Position numbers and translations under genes: made by a program. From NCBI GenBank assembly GCA_938041445.1, contig CALISO010000051.1:1-64000 (forward strand): a DNA stretch of 64,000 nucleotides, in the 5' to 3' direction. The notes below the pieces were generated by a model, which saw nothing but the letters and a program-made list of their open reading frames with translations, was not told the DNA's origin and made no database searches. Of this stretch, positions 241-1,705 are shown in pieces (the first letter of the stretch is position 1; each line of letters starts with the position of its first letter). This stretch comes from an uncultured Saprospiraceae bacterium (GTDB taxonomy: Bacteria > Bacteroidota > Bacteroidia > Chitinophagales > Saprospiraceae).

Positions 241-311
241 CTATAACGAATAATTGTATGCAGCGTCTCTACGACGAAGGAGTAGATATGCTGTCATACA
301 TAGTGTTAGTG
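241..311 (-). other. attC-like integron recombination site
   Basis: Read on the minus strand this 71-bp element has the architecture of an attC site. It has a 1L-like core ending in AAC (at 311-305) and a 2L arm GTATGACAGC. The 2R arm GCTGCATAC pairs with 2L except for one extra A in 2L. The 1R-like core GTTATAG lies at 247-241. The variable middle can form a further 5-bp stem (TCTAC/GTAGA). One unpaired extra base in 2L is a known attC hallmark. The site starts 4 bases after the TAG stop codon of the YwqK-like gene, as in a gene cassette. The core heptamers deviate from GTTRRRY beyond the invariant GTT. Confidence 0.75.
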
Positions 312-1524
312 ACAGCTATTCTTTCTCTATTTGCTTTATTTTAAATGTTATCCAAATTTGATTTATAACTCCTTCAATTGATTGATTCTTCATGTCAAAT
401 TGCATTAAGTTAAACGATTTTTCAATTTTCTCTGTCACAGGATAACCGCTACCGACTGATCTTGTAAATTCTGTAACTTTTCCTTCCTTGTTTAAATTTA
501 CTCTATATACTTCTGTTATAATTAAATCTTGAGGTTTGTTGTTGTAAATATCTGGTGTTAAGTTAATTGCTTTTAGTACGTCTTCAAGATTCATTAATTC
601 GGGATAGACACCTGGAATAAATTTTTCATTATTTTCCAATCTTCTTTCGCTTGGCTTAATTGAAATTGATTTTGAAATGACTGGATTATCATACATAGGG
701 AAGTTTCGTTCAGCTTTTTCCATAATACCATTTCGCATATGAATTATTTCTTTAATTTTTCCATTCGGATAATACCAATAAGTTGGACCTTCTGTCTTCC
801 CATTTATATAGTTTGACTCACAATGTATTTGGCCTTCTTTAAATAAGGTTTCTTTTCCATTCCGTGTACCGTTTTGTATTTCGCAGGTTGATGCTAGTGA
901 TTTGTCTAAGTTATAATTGTAAAGTATGCCGTTTCCATTCTTTATTGAATAATTTCCTTCTTCATTAATTTGATTAATAAATTTCGTTTTATCATTTGTG
1001 TATTCTGTTTCTAATGCCAAAGAACCATTCATGTGATATACTTTACTAATTCCAGTTGGTTTACCTAGATGATTGTAATTTATTTCTTGGTGCAAATTTC
1101 CGTTTGAGTACCATCGCTTTAGTTTTCCAACAACTTTTAGTTCTTGGTTTACTGTAGATTGGCATATCAAGTTTCCATCTTTATCATATTCAAACGAGAT
1201 TAATAGATTTTTAGATTCTTTTATTTCTTGTTTTATCTCGCCATTTTCAAACCAAACAGTTTGAAATTTGTATCTCTTGCCATTTTTATATTCACCATAT
1301 AATCTATTATTTCCTGACTCGAAATATTCCTTTCGATATCCATGCAATTGATTTCTTTTTTGTGTCCATTTCCACTTCAATTTACCATTGTCATGGTATG
1401 TTTTATGTACCTCTAATATTTCTCCTTGATATTCTATAGTATCCATATTTTGACTCAGACCATTTTGCAGGATTAATGCTAATATGATAATTATAAGTTG
1501 TTTCAATTTTCTAGTTGTCACTAA
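247..1524 (-). mobile_element. Integron gene cassette carrying the YwqK-like gene
   Basis: The cassette is inferred from matching ends. On the minus strand it begins TTAGTGAC directly after a G, at about 1525. Its own attC-like site carries GTCACTAAC, the exact complement of GTTAGTGAC, which is expected when a cassette's 5' end and its 1L core derive from one circular form. The gene nearly fills the element: about 18 bases before the start codon and 4 after the stop. No integrase gene or attI is visible in the window, and the sequence upstream of 1525 does not fold as a clear second attC. It may therefore be a lone or terminal cassette of an array continuing left of base 1. Confidence 0.7.
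316..1506 (-). CDS. Secreted YwqK/MORN-like repeat protein with TonB-C-like tail
   Basis: Function is unknown. The protein is built of imperfect repeats of the type 'Y.NGK....Y..G' (for example YHDNGKLKWKW, WFENGEIKQE, YPNGKIKE), as in the MORN-related family often named YwqK antitoxin. That name is not evidence of a toxin partner, and none is adjacent. The last ~70 residues (VNLNKEGKVTEFTRSVGSG ... IWITFKI) resemble a TonB C-terminal-like fold. The ORF track starts at 1572, but that N-terminus crosses the cassette boundary. A TTG at 1506 gives MKQLIIIILALILQNGLSQ, a clean signal peptide, so I chose it. The stop codon abuts an attC-like site, marking the gene as cassette cargo. Confidence 0.7.
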   Translation of the reverse strand: MKQLIIIILALILQNGLSQNMDTIEYQGEILEVHKTYHDNGKLKWKWTQKRNQLHGYRKEYFESGNNRLYGEYKNGKRYKFQTVWFENGEIKQEIKESKNLLISFEYDKDGNLICQSTVNQELKVVGKLKRWYSNGNLHQEINYNHLGKPTGISKVYHMNGSLALETEYTNDKTKFINQINEEGNYSIKNGNGILYNYNLDKSLASTCEIQNGTRNGKETLFKEGQIHCESNYINGKTEGPTYWYYPNGKIKEIIHMRNGIMEKAERNFPMYDNPVISKSISIKPSERRLENNEKFIPGVYPELMNLEDVLKAINLTPDIYNNKPQDLIITEVYRVNLNKEGKVTEFTRSVGSGYPVTEKIEKSFNLMQFDMKNQSIEGVINQIWITFKIKQIEKE

Positions 1525-1705
1525 CAAGGTTATATCCGCACCTAATCTCCTAGAGTTACACATACATCTCATATATGACTATCTCAATTTATAGCTTTTT
1601 CTGGCAGTTACACCAAAATTGACAATTCGAATCAACTTGTGGGATCGTTCTGACTCCTTCCCAACAAACCATTACTCTATAAACCGTCAAATCAAAACAA
1701 AAAAC

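Follow-up and report, generated by a model that had tools for sequence, protein, structure and literature searches.

The integrons of Salinibacter ruber, Chlorobi and Ignavibacteriae, which like one integrase considered below (that of genome G028) lie in or near Bacteroidota, were found with tools that look for an IntI carrying the insertion. For pdif modules the host recombinases XerC and XerD have been proposed as the movers. In surveys, complete integrons in Bacteroidetes were essentially restricted to Salinibacter, and IntegronFinder 2.0 defines a CALIN as at least two attC sites close together without an integrase (PMC9024848). Cassette capture is held to need the I2 helix, which is described as unknown from any other protein (PMC7790495); how I2 and attC originated has been called a chicken-and-egg paradox (PMC4792948). 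According to the accessible part of one study, 'integron-like' tyrosine recombinases do not all conserve the insertion, and no attC, attI or cassettes are described in that part for the insertion-less members (PMC8138268).

The window, a stretch of 64,000 nucleotides from an uncultured Saprospiraceae bacterium, carries near its first base a genuine mobile integron-type gene cassette (Table 1). Very probably it belongs, as a single mobile cassette, to an integron class specific to Bacteroidota whose IntI/Xer-type recombinase lacks I2, the catalysis being inferred. With canonical integrons (class 1, Vibrio-type, TIGR02249 IntI) the system shares cassettes of mostly one ORF plus attC in tandem codirectional arrays, a G|TT crossover, R''/R' complementarity, a conserved extrahelical stem base and an attI by an IntI-like recombinase. 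It differs from them in an integrase that has no I2/IntI patch, scores below the family cut-off and is codirectional with the array, whereas the canonical one is divergent. Further differences are an extra N-terminal domain, a frequent zinc-finger partner, several solo attI sites per genome and R box complementarity that extends to about 10 nt. The system was classed as an integron in the broad sense. It does not qualify as canonical, since tests for two hallmarks of that type, the I2/IntI patch and the divergent integrase, failed. The criteria of the broad sense are satisfied: attC-ended cassettes occur in arrays, and the sites have R and L boxes, the G|TT core and a foldable structure with an extrahelical base.

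Table 1. Positions of the cassette, its attC-like site and its flanks in the window.
Feature	Position	Strand	Details
Stretch past the cassette, reaching the contig end	1..246	.	No second attC and no ORF of 60 aa seen
attC-like site	241..313	-	Covariance model R1 89.8 bits, E 5e-20 (training member); family covariation
R' box G|TTATAG	from 247	-	G at 247
attC 3' arm CGCTGCATAC	265-256	-	
attC apical stem TCTAC/GTAGA	286-282 / 272-268	-	
attC 5' arm GTATGACAGC	299-290	-	One unpaired A at 294
R'' box GTCACTAAC	313-305	-	
Integron-type gene cassette, crossover to crossover	247..1524	-	1,278 bp; ends complementary over 10 nt and DNA copy in G149
YwqK-like cassette gene, MORN_2 repeats, hydrophobic N-terminus	316..1521	-	Pfam PF07661, E 2.8e-16
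attI-like landing site, no integrase adjoining	1525..1568	-	GATGTATGTGTAACTC (1568-1553) ... GGATATAACCTTG|TT

The initial annotation had proposed a cassette with a foldable attC site in a Bacteroidota genome; boundaries, end complementarity and mobility were all tested and support the proposal. On the minus strand the cassette starts with G|TTAGTGAC (G at 1525, T at 1524). This start is exactly complementary to the R'' box GTCACTAAC, as had been claimed for the far end of the gene. The stop codon TAG (318-316, minus strand) of the YwqK-like gene stands ahead of R''. In-frame start candidates within the cassette are GTG at 1521 and TTG at 1506. The TTG start originally placed close to the junction is one of these two candidates. 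The frame is also open upstream as far as ATG 1572. This is an accident and the gene start lies inside the cassette, because a second copy of the cassette, in genome G149, is unrelated upstream of the crossover except for a short attI core. Relatives with a conserved start at or beyond 1572 and without cassette boundaries, which would have refuted the annotation, were thus not what the comparison returned.

Genome G149, which belongs to another genus, carries the window cassette with 98.5% DNA identity over 1,232 bp and 98% protein identity; the protein was absent from both genus-mates searched. The identity begins exactly at the G|TT crossover, and the 5' flanks of the two cassettes are unrelated save for the short attI core GGATATAA. 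Within R'' the G149 copy is interrupted, with a contig end some 150 bp away, and only its 5' boundary could be judged. An empty site was sought in the genus-mates, of which G178 alone has the neighbouring genes, rearranged and uninformative. These nearly identical sequences show that the cassette was recently transferred between genera.

Folding of the single window site is weak evidence by itself, and comparison is decisive. The hairpin was only mildly unusual (z = -2.2 and -2.4), 6 of 200 shuffles folding equally well. An Rfam search matched no attC family, and a loose hairpin pattern had no more matches in the genome than in the control. BLAST with the window site revealed related sites in the same genome on contigs C64, C76 and C74, and sites in 29 of the 199 genomes of the bacterial family; a match on C98 was rejected as a chance match within a gene. 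Forty-eight aligned sites share the frame xTAAC - stem - apical stem - CCG|TTA. In this alignment 91% of the cells are paired, both partners have changed in 11 of 19 pairs, and compensatory cells number 69 versus 19 in shuffled data, a signal that was abolished by sliding the partners. The shuffles were not corrected for relatedness, and the sliding control is therefore the most important. The unpaired A at 294 (minus strand), the one extrahelical base that had been claimed for the attC arm, is retained in 47 of the 48 sites.

A covariance model (R1) was built from the 48 sites and used with a threshold of E ≤ 0.001 per genome. The model recognized the window site, one of its training members (Table 1), and detected the attC family in 61 of the 199 genomes and 41 of 112 genera of the same bacterial family; it had no match at E ≤ 1 in 0.9 Mb of DNA of other families. 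Eight sites in the own genome scored below 1e-6 (C64, C51, C87, two on C76, C99, C44 and C97). The model found no second attC in the 240 bases left of the window site. The window, with one attC, does not meet the CALIN criterion; contig C64 has two. Like a CALIN, the window has an attC cassette and no integrase beside it. It differs from a CALIN in the attI-like site at which its cassette stands and in the presence, elsewhere in the genome, of a candidate integrase that is of a different type. On C87 (L172:7744-7882) and in L071, L073 and L097, a sequence starting TCAGACTGTG.AA directly follows the CCG of attC; on C87 it continues into an apparent insertion-sequence transposase, as if the IS targeted the attC crossover.

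The attC family often forms tandem arrays, in which each cassette start complements its own R'', usually over 9-10 nt and with a sequence that differs from cassette to cassette. Beyond the core, 174 of 282 positions were complementary, compared with 86 ± 7.7 in shuffled arrays (none of 10,000 shuffles as high); some R' boxes were misplaced in this count, which lowered the observed value. Of 27 cassettes, 26 had their longest ORF on the cassette strand, and the median cassette length was about 1.1 kb. Some of the cargo looks like phage defence: genes in cassettes or array regions (L170:1450-3444 (-), L014:1230-2108 (+) and L130:7731-9185 (+)) resemble an AbiU-like AIPR protein, a HEPN-like protein and a type I methyltransferase. 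Antisense beside one attC site a distant tyrosine recombinase was seen (L063:2236-3078 (-), 26% identity).

The absence of an integrase, as originally annotated, stands for the surroundings of the cassette and does not extend to the genome, where a candidate lies on another contig. No canonical IntI scored above the cut-off in the own genome. The best IntI match there, on C52, is a tyrosine recombinase of 369 aa in which no catalytic residue is missing. It aligns to positions 2-178 and 240-314 of the IntI model, and the IntI-patch insertion between them is missing. The I2-less integrases score 188-230 bits against a TIGR02249 cut-off of 265, with the gap at model positions 178-240. Canonical IntI above the cut-off was found in one of the 199 family genomes, G028 (L139, G028:C40; 422 bits), and carries the patch, unlike the system of the window. 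When 80 recombinases were placed in a tree, those linked to arrays fell together in a nearly all-Bacteroidota branch (SH-aLRT 91), separate from the canonical IntI clade (SH-aLRT 100). Tree neighbours also point, indirectly, to Saprospiraceae as the probable family of the window. For the Algoriphagus integrase, an AlphaFold model (mean pLDDT 82, pTM 0.50) predicts an N-terminal beta-beta-alpha-beta-beta-alpha domain and no helix at the I2 place, where the flanking helices are separated by a mere 17 residues or so. Among PDB structures the model matches the integron integrase 2a3v best.

Relatives of the C52 integrase are linked to arrays, lying directly upstream of them. At ten integrase loci all 22 attC sites were downstream of the gene and codirectional with it; some of these loci had been picked for attC-bearing genomes, a choice that does not bias orientation, and the integrase of L069, truncated before the active-site tyrosine, was used for orientation only. 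At 17 of 101 loci a cassette start, together with a complementary R'' and a hairpin, was detected 14-120 bp past the integrase stop, compared with 2 of 101 control positions, although some of the 17 are near-duplicates or possibly due to chance. The other 84 had no recognizable attC, in part because contigs are short or sites have diverged. Of 117 integrase ORFs, 36 have in front of them a treble-clef (zinc-finger) ORF of about 120 aa, which is divergent every time. One such treble-clef-like protein of 120 aa (L013:10575-10937 (-)), of a type divergent from the integrase in many genomes, had no family name above the cut-off.

An attI beside the integrase gene was seen in relatives. The C52 contig of the own genome ends 28 bp past the integrase stop, and no first cassette is visible there. 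Its short 3' flank is GATGTATGTGTAACTC, a 16-mer shared with the 5' flank of the window cassette. On the 5' side of the C99 cassette a one-mismatch pair of this sequence is arranged as an inverted repeat, and the cassettes on C64 and C87 have looser versions on their 5' side. G149 has eight copies of the core GGGGATATAAACAAGTT (one match in the control); two of them follow integrase sequence and the other six stand alone. Six of the eight copies are followed downstream by a complementary R'' with a hairpin. We read the solo copies in G149 as landing sites served in trans. Whether the cassette stands alone or closes an array that continues to the left had been left undecided. The data favour a putative solo attI-like landing site, because GATGTATGTGTAACTC is shared with the C52 flank and no second attC was found in the 240 bases to the left, although the contig end at base 1 leaves a longer array possible. 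Close to contig ends, four solo attI platforms of G149 (L285, L287, L288 and L290) terminate in one and the same attC-like sequence, which is probably a repeat common to them at which the assembly broke.

That the hairpin is an ordinary intergenic palindrome, a terminator or REP-like repeat whose ends match by chance, would agree with its position just past a stop codon and with the only mildly unusual folding of the single site. This reading can be practically dismissed: it is already contradicted because ends are complementary throughout the arrays and the boundary shared with G149 is exact, and covariation and the arrays of codirectional ORFs also speak against it. The cassettes might instead be remnants of a canonical integron (CALIN-like), inserted by an ordinary I2-bearing IntI that is now lost or elsewhere, with the I2-less recombinase an unrelated neighbour. 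Integrase-free lone cassettes are indeed common in other phyla, and G028 proves that canonical IntI occurs in the family. We find this origin highly unlikely, since such an IntI passes the cut-off in a single genome as opposed to 61 with attC, G028 not being among the attC genomes listed, and since arrays begin just past the I2-less integrase, always codirectional, and attI copies match the 3' flank of that gene.

Another recombinase of the cell, such as host XerC/XerD, could move the cassettes while the linked integrase merely marks a hot spot. All of these enzymes are tyrosine recombinases with related sequences, and XerC- and XerD-like genes are present (L018, L019). But the attI is the 3' flank of the linked integrase, repeated six further times in G149, and attC has the G|TT core and R''/R' layout and not that of a dif-like site pair, which makes Xer-driven movement, if anything, harder still to believe. 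The cassette termini follow the attC/attI rule; no dif model was compared.

In the integron class with an I2-less recombinase, which we prefer, an IntI/Xer-type enzyme without the I2/IntI patch would cut the attC-like hairpins at G|TT. This recombinase would have an extra N-terminal alpha/beta domain and often lie next to a divergent treble-clef gene. Circular cassettes would be inserted into attI just downstream of the integrase gene or, as in the case of the window cassette, in trans at one of the solo attI-like copies that lie at other places in the chromosome. The linked recombinase as the acting enzyme, its catalysis, recombination of attC as a folded single strand and the role of the zinc finger are inferences; no recombination assay was performed, and the G000 assembly is fragmented. 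We are evenly divided over a wider proposal, that in a phylum-wide lineage the integrase never had I2, that folded-attC chemistry predates I2 or is independent of it, and that many solo attI platforms are served in trans. Such platforms would make the system a distributed integron. I2-less integrases beside foldable attC sites with an extrahelical base constitute a natural test system for the necessity of I2, and the system is surprising and testable because I2 is held to be necessary for capture (PMC7790495).

Related integrases were found across Bacteroidota. Algoriphagus ornithinivorans, Flavobacterium aciduliphilum, Cyclobacterium and other Bacteroidota have the same layout with longer attC hairpins, and type strains of Algoriphagus and Flavobacterium carry related loci. 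At the integrase loci of other families model R1 had no match, and what succeeded there was to search de novo for complementary ends. We found no description of such an integron class in the open-access literature, subscription papers and preprints being outside the scope of the search. An apparently undescribed integron class with a recombinase lacking the I2 helix is widespread in Bacteroidota. Surveys based on IntI with the insertion miss this common cassette system in a phylum where complete integrons are thought to be very rare (PMC9024848). The same layout was also seen at a locus binned as Spirochaetota, and an integrase of the same type (L202) in a contig binned as Undinarchaeales, possibly misbinned.
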